DNA from: Yponomeuta sedellus
Lineage: Eukaryota > Arthropoda > Insecta > Lepidoptera > Yponomeutidae
Reading direction: 5' to 3'
Length of the DNA: 64,000 nucleotides
Assembly (NCBI GenBank): GCA_934045075.1
Contig: OW203731.1
Location: forward strand, 14,083,062 to 14,147,061
Shown: positions 10,313 through 63,097 of the stretch, piece by piece
How positions within the stretch are numbered: the stretch's first letter is position 1
Layout of the letters: every line of letters starts with the position of its first letter
Notes under the pieces: model-generated
Told to the model about the DNA's origin: nothing
What the model saw: only the letters and a program-made list of their open reading frames with translations
Databases searched by the model: none
Translations under genes and position numbers: made by a program

Positions 10313-10652
10313 GGTGCTAACTAGCGCCACCAATGAAATAAAAATCATAACTTGTATTAAAATACGTTTTTATCTAAAAGTGAACATGAGAAATCTTAAC
10401 AACTGTGACAACTATTTTTAAAACCTATGTACAGTCTAGAACATAGGGACAACAATTTAATCGGTTTCCGTCAAAAACGGCCATTTTTAGCGGAAATCTA
10501 TTTAAGTAATAGGATATAATACTACATTCTAGGCTATAATGTTCTAAAAATAGTTATCACAAATATTAAGATTTTTGATGTTTACGTTTTGAAAAAAACG
10601 TATTATAAAGCAAGTTAAGATTTTTATGTATGGAGTTGTCAGATTTAGCGTA
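10313..10652. mobile_element. MITE, family A copy 2 (right end decayed)
   Basis: The left end contains GCTAACTAGCGCCACCAATG at about 10315. The interior shares TCTAAAAGTGAACATGAGAA and AACGGCCATTTTTAGCGG with the other copies. The right terminal repeat is recognisable but strongly diverged (CAAGTTAAGATTTTTATG). Confidence 0.6.
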
Positions 10653-26789: not shown

Positions 26790-27381
26790 TGTCGCGAATC
26801 ATCACGAAGTTACCAAAACCGTAAGTACAAGTATGCCCACAGATTATTCACTTCCATAAATAAGTTGAAGCTATCTTATTTGTCTGTGCTTACTGAAGGG
26901 GTAGCTTAAAACAGAAATGATGATTGTGGAGAGCATGGCGGGAACGACGTCTTAAATGTGTGCTGTAGCCGAAATATTGGTGAGTTTCCAGAACTAATAA
27001 CTCTTTGACTGTATTGAACATGTGTCTAAGGAGAAATGAAACAAGGCTTACTGAATAAAATAATATAGTAAATCATGAAATGGCACAGTAAGTGGTTATG
27101 AATGAATATGAAATACGAGCTGAATGTGCCTAGCTCGTGGTGGAGAATAAGGGCAGGACTGTAGGGGTGTGTGAGGAGGTCCTGGGGGAACCGGAAGGTT
27201 TCCCTACAAATGAATGAGTACGTGTGGCAAGAAGCGCACGTCCTCACCTAAAGTTGAATTGAATTAGAAAAGGAAATCTTTGTTTCATTGTCACCTTAAA
27301 TTTGAATTACAAATCTTTCTGTTACTTGTCGCTATGATATTTAATAGTATGAACCTAGGCATTAACACTCATTGCGCGACA
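26790..27381 (+). repeat. 5' LTR of the BEL/Pao element
   Basis: 592 bp, starting TGTCGCGAATCATCACGAAG and ending TTGCGCGACA. It differs from the 3' LTR at 27142 (G against C), at 27332 (C against T) and by three extra bases near 26911. It should carry the promoter and poly(A) site of the element. Confidence 0.95.
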
Positions 27382-27384
27382 AAT

Positions 27385-27400
27385 TGGTGGAGGAGCTGGG
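27385..27400 (+). promoter_or_regulatory. Probable primer-binding site
   Basis: TGGTGGAGGAGCTGGG lies three bases inside the 5' LTR, where a tRNA 3' end (..CCA) would pair to prime minus-strand synthesis. Which tRNA is used cannot be decided by eye. Confidence 0.5.
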
Positions 27401-27540
27401 ATATTCAATAAGTATTTCACACAACCAAAACCAAAATCATGCCCATGATGAATTGATGATACATTCCGACAGATAAAACGAATTGATTTGAGATAGGTAC
27501 CTACCGAATGAATTTGAGTAGGTATAACAACCACACACAA

Positions 27541-28180
27541 AAGGAGGCCGACGTAGTGGCCACCGCGGGCTATCGAATAGTCCGTGGTGATCGTCACGAA
27601 CGAATCGTGACGACTCCTACTGAATCAAACAAAAGGAGGCCGACGTAGTGGCCACCGCGGGCTATCGAATAGTCCGTGGTGATCGTCACGAACGAATCGT
27701 GACGACTCCTACTGAATGACACAGAAGGAGGCCGACGTAGTGGCCACCGCGGGCTATCGAATAGTCCGTGGTGATCGTCACGAACGAATCGTGACGACTC
27801 CTACTGAATGACACAAAAGGAGGCCGACGTAGTGGCCACCGCGGGCTATCGAATAGTCCGTGGTGATCGTCACGAACGAATCGTGACGACTCCTACTGAA
27901 TCACACAAAAGGAGGCCGACGTAGTGGCCACCGCGGGCTATCGAATAGTCCGTGGTGATCGTCACGAACGAATCGTGACGACTCCTACTGAATCACAAAA
28001 AAGGAGGCCGACGTAGTGGCCACCGCGGGCTATCGAATAGTCCGTAGTGATCGTCACGAACGAATCGTGACGACTCCTACTGAATCAAATTATCAAACAA
28101 AACGAAGACTGAGGAAGCGGCCATCGCGGGCTAAGGAATAGACCGTGGTGATTGTCACGATGAATTGTGATAATGATAAC
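27541..28180 (+). repeat. Six 92-bp tandem repeats in the BEL leader
   Basis: Unit starts are 27541, 27633, 27725, 27817, 27909 and 28001, an exact 92-bp period, with a degenerate seventh unit to about 28180. Each unit has AAGGAGGCCGACGTAGTGGC, a GCGGGCTATCGAATAGTCCG block and a hairpin (CGTCACGA, 5-base loop, TCGTGACG). The units are almost identical, with changes mainly in the linker. They lie between the primer site and gag, where packaging, translation or enhancer functions would be expected. Confidence 0.92.
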
Positions 28181-28969
28181 TCAAAAGTCAAATAGAGTTT
28201 CTGCTTTTTTTATATGGTTCGGCACTTAAAGCAACACGAAATCAAACCAAAATAACATTAATAAAACCAACAAGCTCTCTTTCTATTTTTTTGCAACAAT
28301 TTATTTTATTTCTCTTCGATGGACAAACGAAGGTACAAGCAAGATACAAATAAAATCTGATCTACTTATGGACTGTGTTTTATTCGCTATTCGTTTATTT
28401 ATTTTTTCTTTCGAATACTGCTCAACCCACCGATGCAGTGGGTTTGTCCTCAGCCTAGGACCGACCAAACAGGTTGTGGTACGTACAACCAAATCCGCTG
28501 GTCCGCTCATAATACCACACATAATACTCTGTTTTTTTTTATTTTTCGTTGGCAACAAGGAAGGTGGAGCTATCTGTATCTGTGTGCTCAGATTATTCTG
28601 AGTCTGCGTATCTGACACAGTATAATTAAACCAAATCTGACTTGACCTTCGTTATCTGTGATAAATTTTCTTGTTCCCGCGAGGTACCTACCCGCCCGAA
28701 ACGATAGCAAAGTTTTGAAATAACTTCTAATACGATATATTCAGTGGTAATTTAGTGAAAAGGGGTACACTATAACCCACGGGCTATTGCGTCAGTGTAT
28801 CTTCTCCTTTAGCAAACGCCAATTTGGTAAGAAGCATTATTTTTTCTTAGATTCGAAAATGTAAAATATGTGAACTTGTTAACAAGTTTTCGTTAGTGTA
28901 TTTTTGTAAATCCAAACCCTGAACGTCAGAGTGGTTTCCAGTTATTGGTCGGGTAGTACTGTTTGAATC
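28181..28969 (+). other. BEL leader region before gag
   Basis: Untranslated leader downstream of the tandem repeats. No frame resembling a known protein is seen. It presumably holds packaging sequence. Confidence 0.5.
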
Positions 28970-29020
28970 GTGACGATAAAGTACCAAATTTACCAAATTC
29001 CAGAGGCGCAAAGAATCAAG

Positions 29021-30235
29021 ATGGAAGAAGCCTACAAAACCCGACTTCAACTCATGGAAAATCATCTAGACAGCCAGCTTTCGAGTGCGTCTGACGTGCT
29101 GTCCAACATAAACAACGGAGGGGTTGAACTACAGGAAATCATACTTTTGAAAACCCAGATACGACAAACTGCTGCCAGGTACGCGACATGTATTGATGCC
29201 TACATGACACAATGCACTAACCCGTCTACCGAGATCATAACATCCTCCACGGTCAAACAAATGGCAGCAGACGAAATGCTTGCCAAACTCGAGGTCATCA
29301 TGCACATGTCTGAGACAAAAATAACTTGTCAGCCGGCACCAGCGCATCATAGTAAACTCCCGACGCTACCACCCCCGCGATTCTCAGGAGATATACTCGA
29401 CTACAATGAGTTTTGGGACAAGTTTCAATCAACCATTGGCAGACGTAATCTTGAAGATGTAGACAAGCTGTCATACTTAATTGCTGCCGTGGATGGTAAA
29501 GCAAAAGAAGCTCTGAGTGGTCTAAGCATCTCGTCAGCCAACTACAAAATAGCTGTAGACACGTTAAAGCGACAGTTTGGAAGTAAAGATGCTCAAATTG
29601 ATGCACATTATGAGGCTCTGAAGCAGCTACCGCCTGCTCAGAATTCTAAAAGCTGCAGACAGACCCTAAACTCTGTGGAACACCACCTCCGTGTCCTACA
29701 AACACTTGGCGAGAATACGGACGGAAATCACCTTAGCACCACAATAACGAGCAAGTTTCCAAATCAAATAATGTATGAAGTGAATATGACCTTGTCCGAG
29801 GAAGAAAATACTGTACCTCACATAAGAAAAGCTTTGGAAAGGGTGATAGTAGCCTTTGAACGTGCCAATCCATTGATGGATTATCAAACAGTTACACCAT
29901 GTGAAACTTATGGTTCAGAATCTGAGACAACCACAACACAGGCATTGCTACAACCCGAAGGCAAAGGTAGAGGGTTCCATAAGACACTTTTGGGAAAACG
30001 GAGAAGGCAGGAAGAAACTCAACATGCCAAGTCAAATAAACTAAAAAGGAAATCCTGCATATTCTGTGATGGAGCCCACTATAACAGTGACTGCACGAAT
30101 TTCATGTCCTTGGAATCACGAAAAGAAAAACTAGGTGACCGATGTTATAGATGTCTAAAAAAGGGTCACAGGTCCAATGAGTGCAGTCTCAAAGGTTTAA
30201 GAAAGTGCTACTACTGTAGAGAAGACCACCACTAA
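29021..30235 (+). pseudogene. gag: BEL/Pao Gag (DUF1759, CCHC knuckles), interrupted
   Basis: The frame is open from 28970. The first ATG in frame, at 29021, is the likely start. The N-terminal part is helical. A DUF1759-type capsid-like domain follows with LPPPRFSGDILDYNEFW and LSYLIAAVDGKAKEAL. The C-terminal part has zinc knuckles CIFCDGAHYNSDC (CX2CX3HX4C) and CYRCLKKGHRSNEC (CX2CX4HX4C). A third knuckle starts CYYCREDHH and is cut by TAA at 30233-30235, while the same frame continues past it. The stop therefore looks like a nonsense mutation or a readthrough site rather than the natural end of a BEL Gag, which is normally fused to Pol. Confidence 0.9.
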
Positions 30236-31018
30236 GCCTTATGCCCTAACAGAAAGAAGGGTGAGAATATGAAAAGATCAAATCACTCTATAACATCGAA
30301 CCTATTTCTGAGTTCTACTTCATTTTTACAGACGGCAACGGTGAAAATTGCAAACGCCAGTAAAGAAAGAAACTGCAGGCTCCTGCTTGACAGTGGCAGC
30401 CAGCGCAGCTATATGACAGCGAGGATGGCAAAGGAGTTGAAGGTTGTCGCTGACAAGGAAGACCTGCTCATAATCTACACCTTCGGGTCAGAACATCCAT
30501 CCGAGACTTCAAGCCCGTCCGCCAAGATTGACATAGTGACAAAACGTGGGATCTGTAGAACAATCCGTGTCAATATTGTTCCATATATCACTGATCGAAT
30601 CCCTGTGCCAGAAATAAAAGCGAATGCCACAATAGATGTGATAGCGGACGATGAAAGTGCAGGTGAGAGAGTTGACCTACTAATTGGGAGTGATCTATAC
30701 ATGTCTTTTATGAGAAACAAAACTGTAAAAGTACAAGACAACCTGTTCCTCATTGATACCGATTTCGGTTGGATTCTCACCGGAAAAACTGACTCTTTAG
30801 CGGAAAATGAGAACACCCTGTCTGTGATCACCTATTGCCATTGTCAAGATCCTGAACAAGTCTACTTTACTGAACCTGACCTTCCATTGCGAGATAAAGA
30901 CGTTAGCTTCCTATGGACACTCGAAAGCATCGGGATTACAGACTCTGCTAAAACTACCCGGGAAGATGAAGCCGTAAAACATTTCACCGAAACTGTCAAT
31001 TATAACGACAGCAGGTAA
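30236..31018 (+). pseudogene. pol: BEL/Pao Pol segment: aspartic protease
   Basis: It continues in the gag frame. The retropepsin active-site motif LLLDSGSQRSYM has its Asp codon at 30389-30391. A flap-like region and the DUF1758-type segment VDLLIGSDLYMSF follow, then GWILTGK. A TAA at 31016-31018 interrupts the linker to reverse transcriptase just before HVKWPW, which normally lies in the open frame. Confidence 0.88.
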
Positions 31019-31465
31019 CATGTAAAGTGGCCTTGGACTGAATATCCGCCTGACTTACCCACAAATCTTGGTCTAGCTTATGGCAGACTAAAAAGCTTAG
31101 TCCAACGACTAGATAAGAGCACCATGAAAGAATATGACACCATTCTTCAAGAACAGTTGAATGCAAATATTATCGAGGTCGTTGACCCTCAACCAGTCAC
31201 TGTAACTCAAGGAACACCGCCTATTCATTATCTGCCCCACCACATAGTCAAACATGAAGGAAAAAAAAGAAGAATTGTTTATGACGCATCTGCTAGAGTA
31301 AAGGAGCAACGAAGCTTAAATGAATGCATGTATCGAGGCCCATCCATGCTAGAAGACGTAATAAACCTGCTCATCAAATTTCGTACAAATAAAGTCGGTA
31401 TTACAGCCGATGTAGAAAAGGCCTTTCTACAAGTAGGTCTCCAAGAAACCGACAGAGATTTGTGA
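31019..31465 (+). pseudogene. pol: BEL/Pao Pol segment: reverse transcriptase N-terminal half
   Basis: Same frame as the protease. Recognisable RT motifs are YLPHHIVKHEGKKRRIVYDA and GITADVEKAFLQVG, the latter carrying the first catalytic Asp. The frame is lost by a single-base shift at about 31450-31462, right after ETDRD. The downstream RT continues in the +2 frame. Losing one T in a short T run is the simplest explanation. Confidence 0.88.
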
Positions 31466-32868
31466 CTAGATTTTTGTGGCTGAAGGACACTAAGAAAATG
31501 CCTTCTGAAGACAACATCTTGCACTTGAGATTCTGCAGAGTGCCATTTGGAATAATTTCCAGTCCATTTTTGCTGACAGCTACAATCCGCCACCATCTGT
31601 CTACAAAAGGCCAGGAACTTGTATCGAAAATTGCAGACCGAGTTTACGTAGACAATCTTGTCACTACAGCTTCGTCTGGCCCGTCTGCTTACGATCTCTA
31701 TCTTGAGACTAGAAAGGCCTTCACTGAGCTCTCCATGAATATCAGAGACTGGGCGTCGAACGACCAAGATTTCATTGAGAAGATTCCTAAAGAACATCGG
31801 GCTAAAGACACAGAGAGCGTAAAAATTCTAGGTCTTACATGGACTCTGAAAGATGACAACCTACAACTAAAATTGAATGACCAAATCTTTAACGAAGAAA
31901 GATCTAAAAATACAAAGAATAAGAGAGATGTCCTAAAAATACTGGCCTCATTGTATGATCCATGTGGGTTTGCATCACCCATTGTACTGCCAGCTAAAAT
32001 CTTTCTACAGGAGTTGTGGAAAAGAAAACTCAAGTGGGATACTCCGTTACCAGAATACATGAAGACCAAATGGCAGGAAATCGTTGAAGCTCTACAAACA
32101 GCCAAGGAAATAAAAGTTCCACGTTACATTGGTAACGAGAAGTCAATCGAAGGAAGTGCAGACCATGAACTTCACTGCTACACAGATGCATCATCCGTCG
32201 CACATGCAGCTGTTGTTTTCCTTCGAGTAACAACTGAACAGGGTAGCAGAACAGTTTTCATCATGTCAAAGTCACGCGTGAATCCCTTGACTGAGAAAGA
32301 AAACCTTAAAATACCAAGACTAGAGTTGCTCGGCTACGTAATTGGAAGTAGATTACTGTCCTATGTGAAGAATGCTCTTGATATTCCTATCAGAAAACAG
32401 TATCTCTGGACTGACAGCCTCATCGTCTTAAGTTGGATGAAATCAACTAAGTTGTTACCACCATTTGTAGCCAGAAGAGTCAATGAAATTAAGCAAAACG
32501 CTGGAGTTGAAATGTGCTACATAAACACCGAACAAAATCCAGCGGACCTAGCAACTAGACCGGAACTTTGGACGCAGAAGAGGGAGCTTTGGTTTAATGG
32601 ACCTCCATTCCTTTCTAAGAAAAAAACATCTTGGCCGATTGACATGTATCTCAAACACCATCACACAACTCTGTCCGCGGTGGCGGAGGGTCTGGACATA
32701 GAAGGTCCAGAAAGCACAGAACCCTCAAGAACTTGGGAGACAGACGAAGTTTTACATGAACAGACAGAAACAAATCATACCATACAAGAAACTATGGCTC
32801 ATAACAATCCATTGAGTTCACAATTACTGGAAATAAAGAAGTTGCAGTCAACATACTTCAAAGAATAG
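31462..32868 (+). pseudogene. pol: BEL/Pao Pol segment: RT C-terminal half and RNase H
   Basis: It begins TRFLWLKD and contains RVPFGIISSPFLL. The catalytic box is VYVDNLVT (31642-31665), a YVDN rather than YVDD version. The RNase H domain has YTDASS, PRLELLG and WTDSLIVLSW, which supply Asp, Glu and Asp, and then QNPADLATR. TAG at 32866-32868 cuts the connection to integrase in frame. Confidence 0.9.
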
Positions 32869-34521
32869 ACAAAGGGAAAGGAAACGCACTTGAGTAGGAA
32901 TTTGGGTCTGTTCGTAGATGTAGATGGAATCTTAAGATGCAAATGAAGAGTAATGCATACAGACTGGTCCTATGAAACGAAACATCCAATCCTTCTTCCC
33001 AAAGACTGTGAATTCACATCAAAAGTAATCTTGGAAGCACATGTGCAAAACTATCACGTAGGAGTGTCACACACATTGAGCATAGTTCGACAACAGTATT
33101 GGATACCTCAAGGTAGATCCCAAGTTCAGAAGATTTTGAAGAGATGTCCACAATGTGTAAAACATGGTGGTGGACCCTACGAACTACCTCCGACCCCAGA
33201 TTTACCACCCGAACGAGTAACATTTAGCCCAGCGTTCACATACACTGGAATGGACTATTTTGGTCCTATGTATGTCACCACAGAACAGGGAAAAGAGAAA
33301 CGATGGATCTGCCTCTATACATGCCTTGTTATAAGAGCTATCCATTTGGAAGTGGTCAGAAATCTGACAGCCGAAGAATGCCTCCTATCTTTGAGAAGGT
33401 TTGTGGCAACCAGAGGAACTCCGTCACTGATTGTTTCTGACAATGCCCTTCAATTTCGACTGACATCCGAAGTCCTCGCAAAACCATACTGCAGTAAAAA
33501 TAATATCAAATGGAAGTTCATTCCACAACTTGCACCATGGCACGGTGGCGTGTATGAAAGACTGGTTGCAGTGGTGAAACACTGTCTTAAGCGAACACTC
33601 GAGAAGCATCTTCTAGGTGACAACCAGCTGATCACCGTCATAAAGGAAGTTGAATCAGTATGCAATACAAGACCCTTGACATACGTGAGTTCAGAACAAG
33701 AGCACATTCTGAAACCCGCAGACTTTCTATCTTTGGGAAAATGTCTGAACCTTGACCTGTCCCACGAACAGATGCTACCAGAAGGTACAGTGCTGAAACA
33801 GAATTTAATAGTCGGATGGAGACGAGGTCAGCGAATCATGACAGAATTCAAGGAAATGTTCGTTGGGCAGTACTTAACCAGCCTTAGAGAGAGATATCGC
33901 CATTCACAGAAACAACCTCGAGTAAAATCTAGAAGGACACCGTGTATTGGAGATGTAGTCCAAATAAAAGGAGAATTGAAGAATCGTGAAGGTTGGAAAG
34001 TCGGGAAAATAACTTCTCTTATCCAAGGTTCAGATGGAGAATGCAGAGTAGCTAAGGTGTTAGTAGGAGACTCAGAATTTACCCGTTCAATCGGACATCT
34101 GTATCCACTGGAAGCTGATATCATTGCAGATGCAGAAAGTGGAAATCAAGACCCGGAAAGAGCACCTACTACTGAAACAAGTTATACCGACATTTCTGAA
34201 CTGCTTTCAATCCCAAGAAGGATTGAAGAAGACAAAACAACCCCTACTGCTTCTCCAGACATATCATCCAGAAACCCATGCCACATCGAAGATGAAAGGA
34301 ACGCGTCTCAAACCCAACGGGAAATGATGGACTTAGAGGATAACGAAAACAATATGTTGCAGAATAATCAAACAAACTGTGACAGCTCTCTCAAGGACTC
34401 TGACAAGGGAATGACCGAAGGACAAAACCATATTGAGGTGAGAGGACAGAGAGTGGCAGCCATGAGAGCAAAAGAAAAAATTGCTGAATGGACGCGTCTC
34501 CTCTTCACTCTGCTGAAGTAA
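32869..34521 (+). pseudogene. pol: BEL/Pao Pol segment: integrase and DUF5641-like end
   Basis: Same frame as RT/RNase H after the TAG. A second stop, TGA at 32944-32946, precedes ATG at 32953. The H2C2 zinc domain is AHVQNYHVGVSH with CPQC. The catalytic residues are Asp in TGMDYFGP (33253), Asp in VSDNALQF (33439) and Glu in VYERLVAVV (33556). The C-terminal GDVVQIKGELKNREGWKVG and IGHLYPLE fit DUF5641. A poorly conserved Asn/Glu-rich tail follows, ending at TAA 34519-34521, 22 bases before the 3' LTR. Confidence 0.9.
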
Positions 34522-34531
34522 GAATTCTTTT

Positions 34532-34543
34532 GGCGGTCGGGAG
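34532..34543 (+). promoter_or_regulatory. Probable polypurine tract
   Basis: GGCGGTCGGGAG directly abuts the 3' LTR, the position of the plus-strand primer in LTR elements. It is interrupted by two pyrimidines. Confidence 0.5.
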
Positions 34544-35132
34544 TGTCGCGAATCATCACGAAGTTACCAAAACCGTAAGTACAAGTATGCCCACAGATTA
34601 TTCACTTCCATAAATAAGTTGAAGCTATCTTATTTGTCTGTGCTTACTGAAGGGGTAGCTTACAGAAATGATGATTGTGGAGAGCATGGCGGGAACGACG
34701 TCTTAAATGTGTGCTGTAGCCGAAATATTGGTGAGTTTCCAGAACTAATAACTCTTTGACTGTATTGAACATGTGTCTAAGGAGAAATGAAACAAGGCTT
34801 ACTGAATAAAATAATATAGTAAATCATGAAATGGCACAGTAAGTGGTTATGAATGAATATGAAATACGAGCTGAATGTGCCTAGCTCGTGGTCGAGAATA
34901 AGGGCAGGACTGTAGGGGTGTGTGAGGAGGTCCTGGGGGAACCGGAAGGTTTCCCTACAAATGAATGAGTACGTGTGGCAAGAAGCGCACGTCCTCACCT
35001 AAAGTTGAATTGAATTAGAAAAGGAAATCTTTGTTTCATTGTCACCTTAAATTTGAATTACAAATCTTTCTGTTACTTGTCGTTATGATATTTAATAGTA
35101 TGAACCTAGGCATTAACACTCATTGCGCGACA
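34544..35132 (+). repeat. 3' LTR of the BEL/Pao element
   Basis: 589 bp, the same ends as the 5' LTR, followed by the target duplication GGTAT at 35133-35137. Confidence 0.95.
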
Positions 35133-36425: not shown

Positions 36426-36491
36426 TAAAGACTGTACTGAAGGAACACGAGAGTAGGTAGGCGCATAAGAAAGCATGCATTAATTATTTCG

Positions 36492-36710
36492 ACGACCTCT
36501 GTGGCGTAGCGGTAGCGCGTCTGCCTACCATGCAAGAGGTCCCGGGTTCGAATCCCGGCTGGGAACAAAAAAAAGCCCAGGTCTTGGACGTTTACATGTT
36601 TGTGATGTCGTTGTTTCTGGTTCCCACGACGCAGGGTATCCTAGTGTGGGGCCAGAAGCAATGTATGTGCTTGTATGTAAATGTTATGTTATGTTATTTG
36701 ACTTAACATT
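36492..36710 (+). mobile_element. tRNA-headed SINE (family S), copy 1
   Basis: The head is tRNA-like, with an A-box region TGGCGTAGCGGTAGCGCGTC and a B-box GGGTTCGAATCCC. The acceptor arms do not pair, so it is not a tRNA gene. An A-run follows, then a body GTTTACATGTTTGTGATGTC, the stem-loop TTCTGGTTCCCACGAC...GTGTGGGGCCAGAA, and a GTTATGTTATG end. The body stem-loop is the sequence at the centre of the large palindrome. Other copies lie at 37601-37803 (-) and 47236-47385 (-). Confidence 0.8.
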
Positions 36711-37534: not shown

Positions 37535-37897
37535 ATATTTCCGATTTAAGGTTGCCTGGAAGAAATTGCTATCAGCAATAAGGCCGCCAATTGAACCTCT
37601 TCTTTTAACATTTACGTACAAGCACATACATTGCTTCTGGCCCCACACTAGGATACCCTGTGTCGTGGGAACCAGAAACAACGACAACACAAACATGTAA
37701 ACATCCAAGACCTGGGCTTTTTTTTTTTTGTTCCCAGCTGGGATTCGAACCCGGGACCTCTTGCATGGTAGGCAGACGCGCTACCGCTACGCCACAGAGG
37801 TCGTCAAAAAAAAAGGTCGTCGTTTTGTAACTGTTGTCTCTGTAATTATTTTCTGGTGTGTACAATAAAGAATATTTTTATCTCATCTTATCTTATC
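37535..37897 (+). mobile_element. LINE 3' tail interrupted by a SINE
   Basis: The left part (GGTTGCCTGGAAGAAATTGC, GCAATAAGGCCGCCAATTG) and the right part (GTACAATAAAGAATATTTTT, then ATCTCATCTTATCTTATC) are the two halves of a common lepidopteran non-LTR 3' end. The same end appears uninterrupted at 40640-40766. The family-S SINE lies between them in reverse orientation. Confidence 0.7.
37601..37803 (-). mobile_element. tRNA-headed SINE (family S), copy 2, inside a LINE tail
   Basis: Full head on the minus strand (TGGCGTAGCGGTAGCGCGTC, GGGTTCGAATCCC), an A-run of 12, and the body with the CCAGAA/TTCTGG stem-loop. It splits the LINE tail listed around it. Confidence 0.82.
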
Positions 37898-47166: not shown

Positions 47167-47252
47167 GCCTTCGGTTCGTTGTCTGCAAGAGATCTTTTTT
47201 AGTGATAACTTAACATTAACATAACATTTTTACATACAGGCACATACATTGC
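47167..47252 (+). mobile_element. LINE 3' tail fragment beside a SINE
   Basis: GGTTCGTTGTCTGCAAGAGA and TTTTAGTGATAAC match the first half of the LINE tail. The second half (GATAAGGCGGCCGTCTG, GCAATAAAGTGATTTCTATC) resumes at about 47389 after the reverse-oriented family-S SINE. Confidence 0.5.
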
Positions 47253-47385
47253 TTCTGGCCCCACACTAGGATATCCTGTGTCGTGGGAACCAGAAACAAC
47301 GACATCGCAAACATGTAAACGTCCAAGACCTGGGGTTTTTTTTGTCCCCAGCCGGGGTTCGAAGCCGGGACCTCTTGCATGGTAG
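47236..47385 (-). mobile_element. tRNA-headed SINE (family S), copy 3
   Basis: Reverse-oriented SINE: body stem-loop TTCTGG...CCAGAA at 47253-47295, A-run (as T8), B-box region GGGGTTCGAAGCC. The A-box half of the tRNA head is missing: the sequence passes from CATGGTAGGC straight into GAGATAAGGCGGCC. It is the undisturbed copy of the sequence at the palindrome centre. Confidence 0.75.
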
Positions 47386-47610
47386 GCCGAGATAAGGCGG
47401 CCGTCTGTTCTCTTCGGTTAAGAAATATTTGTGCAACTTCCTATTTTATGAGCAATAAAGTGATTTCTATCTATTCATCTAAACAGGGCTGTAAAGGCGT
47501 CGGTACACTTGACACTGGATAATGCTTCCTGTGCTAAGTCAAACGCAAATCATATTCTTTTTCCTAGATGTAAACAAACCGTTCATAGAAATTGTTAAAA
47601 TATGTAATAT
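47253..47610 (+). repeat. 358-bp direct copy of the palindrome's right-arm start
   Basis: Matches 50366-50723 base for base without gaps, with a single difference noticed (G at 47422, A at 50535). It also matches the left arm inverted (50408 back to 50051). It is thus the third copy of this segment in the window. Confidence 0.92.
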
Positions 47611-47615
47611 ATAAT

Positions 47616-50371
47616 AATCAATTAGCTAGTTCCAGCTGTCAGTCGTCATAAGCATTAAGTCAGTCAAAACAGCCGGGATCCTAAGGATTAATGTGCGCCC
47701 TGGAATATGGGATAGATACATATCAATGATTGGATGTACGTTTTTATTTAATTTATTCAAGCCTTTTCTTAATAACAGTGGTGACTAATTAGTTATATTA
47801 TATGTTTACTTAAATTTTCATGATATGTGTCACTTACATTTATATGTTTTTCTTATGTACACGCCACTCAGATAGACAGAGAATACTTTATTGCACAACC
47901 AGAAAGTTATACAAGGTCTGAAAAATTAACTAATTATTATTAACGTCCTAACCTATAGGTAACGCTCACTTCAAATCTTCAACAACTATGTAGTTGATTA
48001 AGGACTACAAATATTTGAAAATATATATTAAAAAAAATTATGTTGAATTTCTAGATTTCCTACTTCACGGTACACGACGGGTGCCAACGGTATTCCGGTA
48101 GCCCGAGGCCGACTCGCACTTGGCCGATTTTTGCGATTTAAATAATAGCTTTGCATGGCGCTGGGGAACCCTCAGCTACTGTGAATATTTTATTTTATTA
48201 TATTAGGAAAAATAAATAAAATAAAATAATATAAAAATAAAATAGCCTTTTATTCACAAAATTATATCAAGACCATGATAAATTATAATTGTTTCTTATA
48301 ACTACGTATCGATTTTACTCATTTTTTGAATGCACTAACCCGTGCCAAGGACAATTTTAAAAACCTATTTAGAGGCTACAAATTCCACCCTTGCCGGGAT
48401 TCGAACCCGCGACCTCTGGCTATCCGTGCCAGCGCTCTTTCTTAGCTTAGCTTCTACATTACTTTCAAACGAAATACACAACATTTAAAACATAAAAATA
48501 CCCTTCCATCGGCTACAACATTGATCGGACTCATACAAAAAATAAACCCCTTTTTAGACTAAAAAAAGCCGAAGTACCTGGTTTCTTATCGCAGCTTGTG
48601 TAAACAACACAAAACAAAATAGGTACGTACTACTCGAGAAACACGTGCACTTAAGTGGCATTTAAGCACCAATATAATAGATACAAATCCCTGCAGTTGC
48701 ATCACAGATAACTGGATTTGTGTCCACCAGAAATACAACCTAAAAGTAGCATTTACTTACAACTTACGGTAACTGTGAAGGAAAACATCGTGAGGATACC
48801 CCCGAGTTAGTTGGCTCCGCACGTTTTTCCTGTGGGCTAAGCCGACTAAGCTGTCAGGATGGTATAGGTGCTAGGCAAGTCTACATCATCTAAAAAACAA
48901 TGTCCCAGGCACTGCAGCGTCCGAGTGGTCCCTTCACCCATCTAGTATGAGTGAAGGTGCCACTGGACGCTGTATACATCATCTCATTACGTTGCAACAT
49001 ATGAGATACATACACCATATTTCCTGATTCAGGTCGATTAGACTTGGTTCTCATATAAAGTCACTACATATGAATGCCCGCCTGGGACGTCCTTACTGCC
49101 CTATCACCCACATTCGCTACTATTAAAATGATCATTATTTCCTAAAAATGCATCCTGAGGAAGCTTCAAAAAAACCAAAACAAATACGAGCTAAGCAGCG
49201 GGGATAAGCCTTAGAACATAAATTAACGAGGACATCAGACGAATGATATTACTTTGCCTTTTCAAGTCAAACTAAAAATTGCACGACTGAAACATAAAGC
49301 ACGTATGAGCAATGAACAGTTACTCCACGTACCTACAGCGCGGCATGCTTTCAATGTTAATTTAGCTTACGCTCAGGAAAATGTACACCTACTAAGATGC
49401 CTCTAGCATTCAGACGTGACGAGAGAAAAGTGGATAGTCATTATTATCTTGCTCCTGTTAGTGATACGCCATGATTCATGTCTAAGTAATAGCTTCAGTT
49501 CAGCTAACTTAAAAAAACAGCCAAGCAAAAACGCAATAAACTTTCTTTACAACAAGTCAAGAGAGTGGGTCGTTAGAAATGGTATTGCGAAGGTCTTTAA
49601 CATTTATCGTGTCCGCCACCACTGAAAGCTCTGAGCGCTATCGCCATCTTATTACCAAGCTTAAGTTTAACAATATGCTAGCTCCTCTAGCGCTTTTGTA
49701 GGAAGTTTACTATGGCTGGAACCGCTCGATTAGCTGCCGTAATCCTGAAAGAGTAGTTACCGCTCAACATTGATGATGACACTTAGTATTTCGGTCCGAA
49801 ATACTTAAGGGAGTCATTATCGAGACAGCAATTTCGAAGTATCACAAATCATAATTAATAACATAACAGAGAGCTGTCTCTGGCTATCCAAAGTCCCTCT
49901 TTGGACAGTACAATATTGGAGGCCCCGTAAGACACCGTCTTTTGTTATTACGTGAATTAATCAAATGAAAATGAATGCTAGGATGAGTAATCAACTTGAT
50001 TGACATTATTTATTTAACTTGATATATATTACATATAAAATAATATAAAGATATTACATATTTTAACAATTTCTATGAACGGTTTGTTTACATCTAGGAA
50101 AAAGAATATGATTTGCGTTTGACTTAGCACAGGAAGCATTATCCAGTGTCAAGTGTACCGACGCCTTTACAGCCCTGTTTAGATGAATAGATAGAAATCA
50201 CTTTATTGCTCATAAAATAGGAAGTTGCACAAATATTTCTTAACCGAAGAGAACAGACGGCCGCCTTATCTCGGCCTACCATGCAAGAGGTCCCGGCTTC
50301 GAACCCCGGCTGGGGACAAAAAAAACCCCAGGTCTTGGACGTTTACATGTTTGCGATGTCGTTGTTTCTGG
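47616..50371 (+). repeat. Giant palindrome, left arm (2756 bp)
   Basis: Inverse complement of 50403-53158 with no net length difference. The only mismatch found by eye is C at 50239 opposite A at 50535. The arm holds a family-T repeat fragment (about 48320-48440), AT-rich low-complexity sequence (48180-48250) and a 69-codon open frame with a hydrophobic N-terminus (49416-49625). No gene is supported. Confidence 0.95.
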
Positions 50372-50402
50372 CCCCACACTAGGATATCCTGTGTCGTGGG
50401 AA
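50372..50402. repeat. Palindrome spacer (31 bp, SINE hairpin loop)
   Basis: The spacer CCCCACACTAGGATATCCTG... is exactly the loop and upper stem between TTCTGG and CCAGAA in the family-S SINE body, as seen intact at 47253-47295. It is itself partly self-complementary (AGGATATCCT centre). Confidence 0.93.
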
Positions 50403-53158
50403 CCAGAAACAACGACATCGCAAACATGTAAACGTCCAAGACCTGGGGTTTTTTTTGTCCCCAGCCGGGGTTCGAAGCCGGGACCTCTTGCATGGTAGGC
50501 CGAGATAAGGCGGCCGTCTGTTCTCTTCGGTTAAAAAATATTTGTGCAACTTCCTATTTTATGAGCAATAAAGTGATTTCTATCTATTCATCTAAACAGG
50601 GCTGTAAAGGCGTCGGTACACTTGACACTGGATAATGCTTCCTGTGCTAAGTCAAACGCAAATCATATTCTTTTTCCTAGATGTAAACAAACCGTTCATA
50701 GAAATTGTTAAAATATGTAATATCTTTATATTATTTTATATGTAATATATATCAAGTTAAATAAATAATGTCAATCAAGTTGATTACTCATCCTAGCATT
50801 CATTTTCATTTGATTAATTCACGTAATAACAAAAGACGGTGTCTTACGGGGCCTCCAATATTGTACTGTCCAAAGAGGGACTTTGGATAGCCAGAGACAG
50901 CTCTCTGTTATGTTATTAATTATGATTTGTGATACTTCGAAATTGCTGTCTCGATAATGACTCCCTTAAGTATTTCGGACCGAAATACTAAGTGTCATCA
51001 TCAATGTTGAGCGGTAACTACTCTTTCAGGATTACGGCAGCTAATCGAGCGGTTCCAGCCATAGTAAACTTCCTACAAAAGCGCTAGAGGAGCTAGCATA
51101 TTGTTAAACTTAAGCTTGGTAATAAGATGGCGATAGCGCTCAGAGCTTTCAGTGGTGGCGGACACGATAAATGTTAAAGACCTTCGCAATACCATTTCTA
51201 ACGACCCACTCTCTTGACTTGTTGTAAAGAAAGTTTATTGCGTTTTTGCTTGGCTGTTTTTTTAAGTTAGCTGAACTGAAGCTATTACTTAGACATGAAT
51301 CATGGCGTATCACTAACAGGAGCAAGATAATAATGACTATCCACTTTTCTCTCGTCACGTCTGAATGCTAGAGGCATCTTAGTAGGTGTACATTTTCCTG
51401 AGCGTAAGCTAAATTAACATTGAAAGCATGCCGCGCTGTAGGTACGTGGAGTAACTGTTCATTGCTCATACGTGCTTTATGTTTCAGTCGTGCAATTTTT
51501 AGTTTGACTTGAAAAGGCAAAGTAATATCATTCGTCTGATGTCCTCGTTAATTTATGTTCTAAGGCTTATCCCCGCTGCTTAGCTCGTATTTGTTTTGGT
51601 TTTTTTGAAGCTTCCTCAGGATGCATTTTTAGGAAATAATGATCATTTTAATAGTAGCGAATGTGGGTGATAGGGCAGTAAGGACGTCCCAGGCGGGCAT
51701 TCATATGTAGTGACTTTATATGAGAACCAAGTCTAATCGACCTGAATCAGGAAATATGGTGTATGTATCTCATATGTTGCAACGTAATGAGATGATGTAT
51801 ACAGCGTCCAGTGGCACCTTCACTCATACTAGATGGGTGAAGGGACCACTCGGACGCTGCAGTGCCTGGGACATTGTTTTTTAGATGATGTAGACTTGCC
51901 TAGCACCTATACCATCCTGACAGCTTAGTCGGCTTAGCCCACAGGAAAAACGTGCGGAGCCAACTAACTCGGGGGTATCCTCACGATGTTTTCCTTCACA
52001 GTTACCGTAAGTTGTAAGTAAATGCTACTTTTAGGTTGTATTTCTGGTGGACACAAATCCAGTTATCTGTGATGCAACTGCAGGGATTTGTATCTATTAT
52101 ATTGGTGCTTAAATGCCACTTAAGTGCACGTGTTTCTCGAGTAGTACGTACCTATTTTGTTTTGTGTTGTTTACACAAGCTGCGATAAGAAACCAGGTAC
52201 TTCGGCTTTTTTTAGTCTAAAAAGGGGTTTATTTTTTGTATGAGTCCGATCAATGTTGTAGCCGATGGAAGGGTATTTTTATGTTTTAAATGTTGTGTAT
52301 TTCGTTTGAAAGTAATGTAGAAGCTAAGCTAAGAAAGAGCGCTGGCACGGATAGCCAGAGGTCGCGGGTTCGAATCCCGGCAAGGGTGGAATTTGTAGCC
52401 TCTAAATAGGTTTTTAAAATTGTCCTTGGCACGGGTTAGTGCATTCAAAAAATGAGTAAAATCGATACGTAGTTATAAGAAACAATTATAATTTATCATG
52501 GTCTTGATATAATTTTGTGAATAAAAGGCTATTTTATTTTTATATTATTTTATTTTATTTATTTTTCCTAATATAATAAAATAAAATATTCACAGTAGCT
52601 GAGGGTTCCCCAGCGCCATGCAAAGCTATTATTTAAATCGCAAAAATCGGCCAAGTGCGAGTCGGCCTCGGGCTACCGGAATACCGTTGGCACCCGTCGT
52701 GTACCGTGAAGTAGGAAATCTAGAAATTCAACATAATTTTTTTTAATATATATTTTCAAATATTTGTAGTCCTTAATCAACTACATAGTTGTTGAAGATT
52801 TGAAGTGAGCGTTACCTATAGGTTAGGACGTTAATAATAATTAGTTAATTTTTCAGACCTTGTATAACTTTCTGGTTGTGCAATAAAGTATTCTCTGTCT
52901 ATCTGAGTGGCGTGTACATAAGAAAAACATATAAATGTAAGTGACACATATCATGAAAATTTAAGTAAACATATAATATAACTAATTAGTCACCACTGTT
53001 ATTAAGAAAAGGCTTGAATAAATTAAATAAAAACGTACATCCAATCATTGATATGTATCTATCCCATATTCCAGGGCGCACATTAATCCTTAGGATCCCG
53101 GCTGTTTTGACTGACTTAATGCTTATGACGACTGACAGCTGGAACTAGCTAATTGATT
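50403..53158 (-). repeat. Giant palindrome, right arm (2756 bp)
   Basis: Inverse complement of the left arm. Similarity stops after CTAATTGATT at 53158. The following CCAAAATTACACC has no partner on the left, so this arm is probably the original chromosomal copy, continuous with its right flank. It contains the mirror copies of everything in the left arm. Confidence 0.95.
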
Positions 53159-56040: not shown

Positions 56041-56050
56041 GTTTTTAAAT

Positions 56051-57030
56051 TTGTCCTTAGCACGGGTTAGTGCATTAAAAATAAAAATAGTATAATCATG
56101 TGGGTAGGTACAGTGATATCGTTCCGATGTAAAACCTAACTGTAAAGTAGGTAGTCGGGGCTGTAAGTGATGCAATTTGCTTAAGCCAGATGTCGCTGCC
56201 TGTACGTAATACAGAGAATAGTGTAAAGAGGTTCGAAATTTCACTGATGCCGGTGAGTCGCCCATTGGCTCAATTGGAAGAGCGCTGGCACGGATAGCCA
56301 GAGGTTGCGGGTTCGAATCCCGGCATGGGTGAAATAAATTTTTAGCCTCTAAATAGGTTTTTAAATTTGTCCTTAGCACGGGTTAGTGCATTAAAAATAA
56401 AAATAGTATAATCATGTGGGTGATATCGTTCCGATGTGAAACCTAACTGTTAAGTAGGTAGTCGGGGCTGTAAGTGATGCAATTTGCTTAAGCCAGATGT
56501 CGCTGCCTGTACGTAATACAGAGAATAGTGTAAAGAGGTTCGAAATTTCACTGATGCCGGTGAGTCGCCCATTGGCTCAATTGGAAGAGCGCTGGCACGG
56601 ATAGCCAGAGGTTGCGGGTTCGAATCCCGGCATGGGTGAAATAAATTTTTAGCCTCTAAATAGGTTTTTAAATTTGTCCTTAGCACGGGTTAGTGCATTA
56701 AAAATAAAAATAGTGTAATCATGTGGGTACAGTGATATCGTTCCGATGTAAAACCTAACTGCAAAGTAGGTAGTCGGGGCTGTAAGTGATGCAATTTGCT
56801 TAAACCAGATGTCGCTGCCTGTACGTAATACAGAGAATAGTGTAAAGAGGTTCGAAATTTCACTGATGCCGGTGAGTCGCACATTGGCTCAATTGGAAGA
56901 GCGCTGGCACGGATAGCCAGAGGTTGCGGATTTGAATCCCGGCATGGGTGAAATAAATTTTTAGCCTCTAAATAGGTTTTTAAATTTGTCCTTAGCACGG
57001 GTTAGTGCATTAAAAATAAAAATAGTATAA
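56051..57030 (+). repeat. Tandem trimer of the ~312-bp tRNA-like unit (family T)
   Basis: Unit starts (TTGTCCTTAGCACGGG) are at 56051, 56367, 56674 and 56986, giving periods of 316, 307 and 312, with the last unit cut after about 45 bases. Each unit carries, in order, AGTGCATTAAAAATAAAAAT, TATCGTTCCGATGT, GTAGTCGGGGCTGTAAGTGA, CAGATGTCGCTGCCTGTACG, TTCGAAATTTCACTGATGCC, the tRNA-like domain and TAGCCTCTAAATAGG. Units differ by scattered substitutions and small indels. Lying head to tail makes it satellite-like rather than a set of independent insertions. Confidence 0.92.
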
Positions 57031-57410
57031 TTAAGGAGATTAACAACATGAACGAGTGCTGTTCGTGTGTCGAATCTGGCCGCGGCACTTGTTATGTTTT
57101 CACGGCCTATGCAAAACAATTAAATAATGCTTTGGTATTTAAAATTTATTTATTAATGGCAATCATGGAATTTCATACGTATAGGTGGTAATTAATGTAT
57201 TAGATTTAACAGGACTTGAGAAAAGATAGTCAGAGTGGAGTATTTTTTCCCGCTGCCTTTTTCTCCACTACACTATGGCCCGAAGGCAGCGGCTTTCCCG
57301 TTCATGTTATATTGTACTTTGACATTCAGCAAACAGAATTTAAATTCTTTACGTTGAAATTAATTGAATTGAATTGACATTCATTTGAAATAAATGAATT
57401 GATTATACTA
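57031..57410. other. No supported gene
   Basis: Unique sequence between oppositely oriented family-T repeats. Nothing recognised. Confidence 0.4.
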
Positions 57411-57862
57411 TTTTTATTTTTAATGCACTAACCCGTGCTAAGGACAAATTTAAAAACCTATTTAGAGGCTAAAAATTTCACCCATGCCGGGATTCGAACC
57501 CGCAACCTCTGGCTATCCGTGCCAGCGCTCTACCTATTGAGCCAATGGGCGACTCACCGGCATCAGTGAAATTTCGAACCTCTTTACACTATTCTCTGTA
57601 TTACGTACAGGCAGCGACATCTGGCTTAAGCAAATTGCATCACTTACAGCCCCGACTACCTACTTTGCAGTTAGGTTTTACATCGGAATGATATCACTGT
57701 ACCCACATGATTATACTATTTTTATTTTTAATGCACTAACCCGTGCTAAGGACAAATTTAAAAACCTATTTAGAGGCTAAATTGGTAGAGCGCTGGCACG
57801 GATAGCCAGAGGTTGCGGGTTCGAATAGCGGCATGGGTGAAATTTTTAGCCTCTAATTAGGT
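57411..57862. mobile_element. tRNA-like repeat (family T), minus unit plus inverted fragment
   Basis: A full minus-strand unit (57411-57725) is followed by the start of a second minus unit up to AGAGGCTAA (57779). It then flips to a plus-strand fragment starting inside the tRNA-like domain (TTGGTAGAGCGCTGGCACGG) and running to TTAGCCTCTAATTAGG. Confidence 0.82.
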
Positions 57863-58982: not shown

Positions 58983-59074
<92 letters not shown>

Positions 59075-62090: not shown

Positions 62091-62130
62091 TGATTGTTGG
62101 TATAATGGGTAGGCGAGTAGTGAGTAGTAA

Positions 62131-62404
62131 TTATACTATTTTTATTTTTAATGCACTAACCCGTGCTATGGACAATTTAAAAAACCTATTTAGAGGCTAA
62201 AAATTCCACCCATGCCGGGATTCGAACCCGCGACCTCTGGCTATCCGTGCCAGCGCTCTATCCAACTGAGCTAATGGGCGACTCACCGGCATCAGTGAAA
62301 TTTCGAACCTCTTTTTACACTATTCTCTGTATTACGTACAGGCAGCGACATCTGGCTGAAGTCGATTGCATCAGTTACAGCCCCGACTACCTACTTTGCA
62401 GTTG
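62131..62404 (-). mobile_element. tRNA-like repeat (family T), minus copy
   Basis: Nearly complete unit in reverse orientation, from TAATGCACTAACCCGTGCTA to CTACTTTGCAGTT. The tRNA-like domain is at about 62205-62282. Confidence 0.85.
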
Positions 62405-62410
62405 AAGCAG

Positions 62411-63058
62411 ATTTTTTAGCCTCTAAATAGGTTTTTAAAATTGTCCTTAGCACGGGTTAGTGCATTAAAAATAAAAATAGTATAATCATGTGGGTACAGC
62501 GATATCATTCCGATGTAAAAATCTAACTGCAAATTAGGTAGTCGGGGCTGTATGTGAAGCAATCGACTTCAGCCAGATGTCGCTGCCTGTACGTAATACA
62601 GAGAATAGTGTAAAGAGGTTCGAAATTTCACTGATGCCGGTGAGTCGCCCATTAGCTTAGTTGGATAGAGCGCTGGCACGGATAGCCAGAGGTTGCGGGT
62701 TTGAATCCCGGCATGGGTGTAATTTTTAGCCGCTAAATAGGTTTTTAAAATTGTCCTTAGCACGGGTTAGTGCATTAAAAATAAAAATAGTATAATCATG
62801 TGGGTACAGCGATATCATTCCGATGTAAAAACCTAACTGCAAATTAGGTAGTCGGGGCTGTAAGTGATGCAATCGACTTCAGCCAGATGTCGCTGCCTGT
62901 AAGTAATACAGAGAATAGTGTAAAGAGGTTCGAAATTTCACTGATGCCGGTGAGTCGCCCATTAGCTCAGTTGGATAGAGCGCTGGCACGGATAGCCAGA
63001 GGTCGCGGGTTCGAATCCCGGCATGGGTGGAATTATTAGCCTCTAAATAGGTTTTTGA
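62411..63058 (+). repeat. Tandem dimer of the tRNA-like unit (family T)
   Basis: Unit starts at 62441 and 62751 give a 310-bp period. They are preceded by a leftover end ATTTTTTAGCCTCTAAATAGG that directly follows the minus copy. The second unit has the best tRNA-like domain in the window (62956-63029): acceptor-like CGCCCAT/ATGGGTG, D-stem GCTC/GAGC, anticodon stem CTGGC/GCCAG, T-loop TTCGAAT. Confidence 0.9.
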
Positions 63059-63097
63059 AAGTGAGTAGTAAGTAAGTAACTTATTAGAAAACAAAGT

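Follow-up and report, generated by a model that had tools for sequence, protein, structure and literature searches.

A long palindrome at a SINE hairpin in Yponomeuta sedellus: a probable interstitial inverted duplication by template switching

Our analysis indicates that the long palindrome described here is probably a recent interstitial inverted duplication on a chromosome of a lepidopteran. A single nascent strand would have switched template twice during one episode of replication or repair (foldback/MMBIR type). The sequence of one exon likewise places the host among the Lepidoptera. In the window (the whole 64,000-nucleotide stretch of contig OW203731.1 that was analysed), the assembly displays the layout, both junctions, 6 bp of inverted homology at the axis, an axis-stem base that matches the opposite stem, and near identity of the copies.

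Anatomy of the palindrome and its third copy

Sequence comparison within the window showed that the arm at 47616-50371 is the reverse complement of the arm at 50403-53158. Each is 2756 bp long and they are complementary at 2755 of 2756 bases, the sole mismatch being 50239 versus 50535. The spacer (50372-50402) is 31 bp, the axis lies at 50387, and mirror symmetry ends at 47615/53159. Arms of such length cannot be chance. An earlier note on this DNA had reported the palindrome with these arms, this spacer and one mismatch, all of which we confirmed; the mirrored frames it cited (49416-49625 and 51149-51358) agree with the axis, the stop-to-stop frames being 49407-49625 and 51149-51367. Its two-arm layout was correct as far as it went but overlooked a third, partial copy. 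The parts of the locus are:

47253-47610, plus strand: third, partial forward copy, 358 bp, differing only at 47422 (G, versus A at 50535)
47611-47615, no strand: junction 1, five bases between forward and inverted copies, from sequence comparison
47616-50371, minus strand: inverted copy (left palindrome arm)
50372-50402, no strand: spacer (loop), 31 bp; the left SINE copy has the same loop at 47259-47289
50403-53158, plus strand: forward copy (right palindrome arm), which runs on into the right flank and is taken as the original copy
50535, plus strand: single base differing among the copies, A in the right arm and G in the other two

The partial copy is a direct repeat of 50366-50723 at an offset of 3113; a further difference, at 47252, falls outside the 358-bp repeat and marks the junction. 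From the left flank rightwards, the partial forward copy is followed by the inverted copy, the forward copy and finally the right flank; the outer flanks differ in sequence. The interstitial insertion amounts to 3113 bp with two readable junctions, and the distal flank is not lost, sequence continuing on both sides within a 24.2-Mb contig. The inverted copy adjoins its source across a short spacer, as expected of foldback or template switching, and the return to the original direction that characterizes the two-switch form is present at the second junction, 47610/47616. Junction 1 has no clean microhomology or overlap and consists of either 2-5 filler bases or slippage. Its first three bases also extend what may be a slip at an 11-bp repeat (47600-47613 = 50738-50751), and slippage there would be compatible with the junction. 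We rejected a tandem duplication with subsequent inversion, a route that does not yield a 358-bp segment three times, one of them inverted beside the axis.

Twenty 10-kb pieces of the same genome (200 kb in all) were screened with BLAST for inverted repeats of at least 150 bp and at least 75%; in this small sample none had arms of 400 bp or more.

The SINE hairpin at the axis

The axis falls inside a tRNA-Gly-type SINE, at the element's own quasi-palindrome TTG-C-TTCTGG-N31-CCAGAA-A-CAA; ARAGORN calls related copies of this SINE tRNA-Gly. The relevant features are:

47211-47390, minus strand: left-edge SINE copy of the tRNA-Gly type, 93% to 36520-36696 and 90% to 37606-37776
50366-50371, plus strand: inner axis stem TTCTGG; the base adjoining it on the outside, 50365, is T, against C at the corresponding 47252 of the left SINE copy
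50403-50408, plus strand: other stem, CCAGAA, from sequence comparison

Other SINEs and the left copy carry TTCTGG-N31-CCAGAA as well, and this short inverted repeat of the source sequence sits exactly at the axis. The left copy spans the hairpin intact, its outer 5′ head being gone beyond 47390, and both axis copies begin at the stem, covering just SINE positions 39-180. Because the left copy is intact through the hairpin while the axis copies start at the stem, the polarity of the rearrangement is readable.

The axis copy reads TTGTTTCTGG, and the left copy and two other SINEs in the window read TTGCTTCTGG. The changed axis-stem base is the one dictated by the opposite stem, CCAGAAACAA, so that the mismatch is "repaired" in the axis copy only, as would be expected were the axis copy templated by the other stem. 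A mere mutation at 47252/50365 was set aside in view of this signature, though the signature alone is weaker than it appears because the C-to-T stem change also arises without any palindrome.

A stem of at least 6 bp occurred at 0.24% of 200,000 random axes with 31-bp spacing (window positions 1000-47000), the observed axis stem being 6 bp. The SINE strand folds into a hairpin, as do 5 of 200 shuffles. Since short inverted repeats are dense (perfect 6-bp pairs with spacers up to 60 number about 29 per kb), a stem near a break is unremarkable, and only its position exactly at the axis stands out.

Contents of the arms

None of ten left-arm frames had a Pfam match above the curated cut-off (two weak matches fell far below it), the longest stop-to-stop frame contained in one arm is 72 aa, and the arms have no Rfam family at the gathering threshold. 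This bears out the earlier view that the arms carry no supported gene. The arms thus lack the recognised gene expected of a gene-bearing ampliconic palindrome, with the proviso that small exons could escape such a search. Two repeats lie within them:

48308-48459, mirrored at 52315-52466, no strand: tRNA-Ser-type SINE fragment, mostly 84-91% to several SINE copies in the window
48766-48994, mirrored in the right arm, no strand: dispersed repeat, arm positions 1150-1379

The dispersed repeat accounts for at least 39 of the 49 matches listed, at 87-88%. When the arm was compared with the genome, whole-arm matches occurred at this locus only among the best 40 of 8056 candidates, the other matches listed being repeat fragments; with that number scored, the count of genome matches is a lower bound. 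Likewise, the many copies with the same ends that would mark a TIR transposon, MITE or foldback element were not seen among these 40. A TIR DNA transposon (47253-47610 and 50051-50412 being TIR-like) was rejected on this ground, and also because the outer end of the supposed TIR lies within a SINE. We likewise rejected an LTR element: the direct repeat 47253-47610/50366-50723 holds a SINE, and the LTR element in the window sits elsewhere, at 26790-35132.

Proposed origin

The earlier interpretation stands with respect to the anatomy, the near identity of the arms and the absence of any supported gene, but it proposed no origin. Based on the flanks and the partial third copy, we suggest a double template switch at the SINE hairpin. 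A leftward-growing strand would first have replicated the right-hand segment as far as the SINE, at about 50403, and gone on through its hairpin. At the SINE's short inverted repeat, the 3′ end would have folded back or jumped to the other strand (CCAGAA pairing with TTCTGG around a 31-nt loop), after which 2756 bases of the segment would have been copied back to 53158. With a second switch, leftward synthesis would have resumed 358 bp behind the first turning point, and the resumed strand would have passed the SINE a second time before entering the left flank. The replicative character of the event, the direction of synthesis and the enzymes involved are inferred. The ancestral state was presumably the right-hand copy without the insertion. 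The copies differ among themselves at one base, and the event is likely to be young. One point against template switching of this kind is that the terminal deletions or triplications of foldback cases, as described in the published excerpts available, are absent here.

The palindrome has no evident function. Local instability, in the form of a hairpin or cruciform or of arm deletion, is expected. Instability is the rule for long, near-perfect palindromes, and an example that still displays its formation is useful: with both junctions and an unrearranged SINE copy side by side, a single assembly suffices to read in which order the template switches took place.

Alternative origins

It is rather unlikely that the locus began as an ODIRA-type inverted triplication and that a later deletion took most of the left copy together with a second palindromic junction. 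The forward-inverted-forward order is that of an inverted triplication, and deletion eroding one palindromic junction is described in the portions of PMC10766186 and PMC10766183 available. The inverted repeat including its spacer is 43 bp, within the 40-80 bp range that the Fig 6B legend there gives for repeats plus spacers; taken as spacing alone, 31 bp is below that preferred range. This route requires an extra step, however, and its two defining traces are missing: instead of two full direct copies around the inverted one there is a left copy of merely 358 bp, and a short inverted repeat is seen at the axis but not at the other junction, from which a later deletion could have removed it.

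Double-strand break repair, in which a resected end folds back at the SINE hairpin, extends 2.7 kb and is end-joined with small filler, is improbable. The 6-bp stem and 31-nt loop suit foldback at breaks, as does a junction 1 with 2-5 filler bases and no clean microhomology. The joined ends overlap by 358 bp, however, which a single break in one chromatid cannot produce without a sister, a homologue or filled-in staggered nicks. Moreover, the foldback chromosome of the yeast model has a terminal deletion in the part of PMC10622511 available, whereas both flanks are kept here.

An assembly or library artefact arising from foldback or chimeric reads, or from a missed adapter, is likewise improbable. 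Some long-read libraries contain many foldback artefacts, at about 0.55-0.6% of ONT gDNA reads according to the available text of PMC12870357. The same text reports virtually no PacBio HiFi foldback reads, a figure from three PacBio samples only, which would apply here if the assembly was built from such reads. An artefact read returns into the same flank, but here the second side enters a different one. The second junction, the direct repeat of 358 bp and the one base at which the copies disagree also argue against it, and a missed adapter or foldback read would not by itself produce the stem-repair signature. The palindrome probably exists in the animal, and presumably in its germline.

A maintained functional palindrome is highly improbable. 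If transcribed, the near-perfect arms of 2.7 kb and their 31-nt loop would form a long hairpin RNA, a source of small RNAs for which the SINE pieces in the arms could be targets, but the tested frames contain no recognised gene. Nor is there any sign of gene conversion holding the arms alike, since 50535 is the sole changed base in both the arm and the left-copy comparisons, although 358 bp is too short to test for conversion.

The SINE stem as a possible recurrent seed

Template switching at this SINE raises the tentative and rather doubtful idea that the hairpin built into its tail has repeatedly served polymerases as a turning region, leaving scars of template switching that grade in size from inverted tracts of roughly a dozen bp up to the 2.8-kb inverted duplication. 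The perfected 9-bp stem, pattern TGTTTCTGGN{10,35}CCAGAAACA, occurs at 304 places, of which 20 were read: the first 18 in listing order, and L047 and L048, chosen for odd strings. Seventeen of the 18 have arms of just 9-10 bp and resemble ordinary SINE copies by eye; the remaining one, L039, is among the 4 places that carry the pattern CTGGTTCCCN{6,12}GGGAACCAG. The other three of these were read too, as was one further odd place from the 304. A 14-base pattern, GTCGTTGTTTCTGGN{10,35}CCAGAAACAACGAC, gave 6 places including the window and its opposite-direction counterpart gave 6; all 11 places other than the window were read and none has kilobase arms at its axis.

Other copies of the same SINE do hold short inverted tracts, and L048 and L054 are miniature forward-inverted-forward arrangements within it; the axis of L055 falls outside the SINE. 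Kilobase arms are absent from all 35 other places read, a result that weakens the outer stem as a strong hotspot. Nor is that stem established as a hotspot at all, because by eye only the window, of the 12 places with either 14-base pattern, keeps the family's ordinary loop between outer stems. Should the hairpin prove to seed such events repeatedly, inverted duplications would arise from a source dispersed as a mobile element, and an abundant SINE would scatter palindrome seeds across a holocentric genome.

Comparison with known systems

Ampliconic palindromes of sex chromosomes have long, near-identical arms, as at this locus, but the arms here are shorter and without a recognised gene. The ODIRA inverted triplication, as presented in the available parts of PMC10766186 and PMC10766183, shares the forward-inverted-forward order and a junction at a short interrupted inverted repeat; it differs from the locus in the extent of the left copy (358 bp here) and in the number of inverted-repeat junctions (one seen here).

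Four-point template-switch mutations, in the sections of PMC7954356 available, similarly combine two switches with an inverted tract between them, and when point 4 lies before point 1 the outcome is one large insertion. Quasi-palindrome correction, in the corresponding sections of PMC8604942, likewise makes an imperfect inverted repeat perfect. The events in these excerpts are short-range, whereas the inverted tract at the locus is 2756 bp.

In foldback inverted duplications (yeast GCRs and human INV-DUP), the available text of PMC7467729, PMC10622511 and PMC3907307 describes an inverted copy whose start is marked by a short inverted repeat, the arms being separated by a loop, and the stem and loop lengths of the locus are within the range reported there. 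For human inverted duplications, the portion of PMC3907307 available gives 2-8 bp of inverted microhomology at 13 sequenced junctions. In contrast to these cases as described, the locus is interstitial and keeps both flanks, with no terminal deletion or telomere capture, and at 2.8 kb it is far shorter than human INV-DUP.

Structure of the palindrome and of the locus

The window (G000:C11:14083062-14147061) lies on a 24.2-Mb contig of a 657.5-Mb assembly in 57 contigs; the other contigs whose size was seen measure about 10-27 Mb, except two of ~50 kb. Comparison of the window with itself bore out the palindrome of the earlier note, with equal 2756-bp inverse-complement arms, one mismatch and a 31-bp spacer. 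At 47615 and 53159 the symmetry breaks off abruptly. Twenty 10-kb pieces sampled from this genome, a small set, yielded no inverted repeat whose arms reached 400 bp. Absent from the earlier note was a third copy: 47253-47610 repeats 50366-50723 in direct orientation, at an offset of 3113. Between the left and right flanks, the order is as follows.

Layout of the locus
47253-47610: 358-bp partial forward copy
47611-47615: five bases (junction 1)
47616-50371: inverted copy (left arm)
50372-50402: spacer (axis 50387)
50403-53158: forward copy (right arm)

On the right, the forward copy is continuous with the flank; on the left, a SINE copy (47211-47390, minus strand) runs on into the flank there. 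Without 3113 bases the locus is a single unbroken segment, so that the event, as assembled, combined the interstitial insertion of an inverted copy with a short duplication in direct orientation.

A SINE at the axis

The palindrome axis falls within a tRNA-Gly-type SINE. Its left copy is whole through the hairpin (TTG-C-TTCTGG-N31-CCAGAA-A-CAA), whereas the copies at the axis start only at the stem. The axis copy reads TTGTTTCTGG, that is, its base is set by the opposite stem; judged from the sequence, a foldback or strand switch priming on CCAGAA with the segment as template would give exactly this base. Inverted homology of at least 6 bp occurred at 0.24% of random axes with 31-bp spacing (n=200,000, window positions 1000-47000). 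The single-stranded hairpin has a predicted folding energy of -11.1 kcal/mol, equalled by 5 of 200 shuffles. An identical hairpin sequence is found in two more SINE copies of the window (36615-36657 and 37635-37677), and the TTCTGG/CCAGAA pair in SINE copies of five of 20 sampled loci (L010, L013, L023, L026, L027). SINEs of this family at 36487-36686 and 37606-37809 form an inverted pair, 95% alike and 920 bp apart.

Other palindromic forms of the SINE hairpin

The genome was searched for palindromic forms of the hairpin with 14-base arms. Six places, including the window, were found on the body side and six on the other side, and the sequence of all 11 non-window places (L053-L063) was read. 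L039 and L047-L052 in the list below are additional to these.

Places read elsewhere in the genome (L handles)
L048 57-262: miniature in the forward-inverted-forward order of the window, inverted tract ~46 bp, same SINE family
L054 1447-1631: miniature forward-inverted-forward template-switch scar, same SINE family; apparent short inverted tract within the SINE copy
L056 1370-1604: 238-bp palindrome, 91%, in a tRNA-Gly-type SINE, arms extending to the SINE head
L057, L060, L061, L062, L063: apparent short inverted tracts inside the SINE copy
L058: the same, less clear
L049: inverted tract of ~13 bp, by eye
L051: SINE piece ending in a 22-bp foldback
L039: short palindrome derived from the SINE
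L053: short foldback, diverged
L059: SINE kept only in part
L052 (chosen for its short loop): SINE without a longer palindrome
L055: axis outside the SINE
L047, L050: palindromes without a SINE

Inverted tracts thus recur in the tRNA-Gly-type SINE, a statement of plain counts and not of preference over other sequence. Turning points vary among places, with both directions represented. Only in the window do the outer stems still enclose the ordinary loop (matched strings of both 14-base searches, by eye), and none of the 35 other genome places read has kilobase arms at the axis. The palindrome in L056 could also stem from two SINEs or from self-primed cDNA. L056 further holds an imperfect palindrome of ~750 bp (24-774, 74%) away from the SINE axis.

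Content and age of the arms

The arms contain SINE pieces and a dispersed repeat. As the earlier note had held, they carry no supported gene: ten left-arm frames had no Pfam match above cut-off, Rfam at gathering threshold was empty in the arms, and these searches revealed no function. Instability would be an expected consequence of the palindrome.

Over the stretch shared by the three copies, the only difference is at 50535 (A, against G in the other two), which is also the sole mismatch between the arms. At a lepidopteran mutation rate of 2.9e-9 per site per generation, a single change over 5870 bases gives an age of ~59,000 generations (95% Poisson range ~1,500-327,000), which arm-to-arm conversion could mask, the left copy being too short to reveal it.

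The rest of the window

Further features
2824-4371 (minus strand): large exon with a CCDC66 family match
10338-10627: 290-bp imperfect palindrome, diverged, 74%
26790-35132: BEL/Pao-type LTR retrotransposon (DUF1759, DUF1758, Peptidase_A17, integrase zinc-binding, DUF5641); LTRs ~590 bp, 99.2% alike, TG...CA ends, GGTAT on either flank
27534-28170: tandem array of ~6 copies of a 92-bp unit, immediately inside the 5' LTR of the BEL/Pao-type retrotransposon
56041-57031, 57400-57781, 62130-63060: tRNA-Ser-type SINE cluster, ~91-97% alike, partly head-to-tail tandem arrays (307-310-bp unit), partly inverted
58986-59072: perfect TA repeat, 43.5 copies

Among the 93 relatives listed for the CCDC66 exon, the best has 77% identity; the named ones with 49-64% are all Lepidoptera (among them Plodia, Plutella, Spodoptera, Manduca and Bombyx), and named beetles, bugs and a stick insect have at most 43%. 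On this basis a lepidopteran is the probable host. Lepidopteran chromosomes are holocentric.

Mechanism

The simplest account of the inverted duplication, as read from the sequence, is a single strand that switched template twice. At junction 1, the forward copy ends at 47610 in ATATGTAATAT; a second ATATGTAATAT lies 25 bases further in the original segment, and 47600-47613 matches 50738-50751. Slippage of the polymerase from one repeat to the other, right before the switch, may have left two untemplated bases. Alternatively, all five bases are filler, or 25 bases were lost at a later time. Slippage, if it occurred, would favour an unstable replicative intermediate, without proving it.

ODIRA is possible, with most of the left copy lost afterwards. 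The interrupted repeat at the axis, 43 bp including the spacer, fits the measure in a figure legend of PMC10766183, but its spacing of 31 bp is below the 40-80 given in the text of that paper, and repeat size is therefore not decisive for ODIRA. Break repair with end joining is also a possible origin of the duplication.

Searches of one open-licence collection listed no study of the locus or of this SINE as a foldback seed, and the main text of PMC8010984, on lepidopteran SINEs, mentions neither hairpin nor palindrome. Stems and loops of foldback events are reported in PMC7467729 and PMC3907307, and the stem and loop at the palindrome axis match them.
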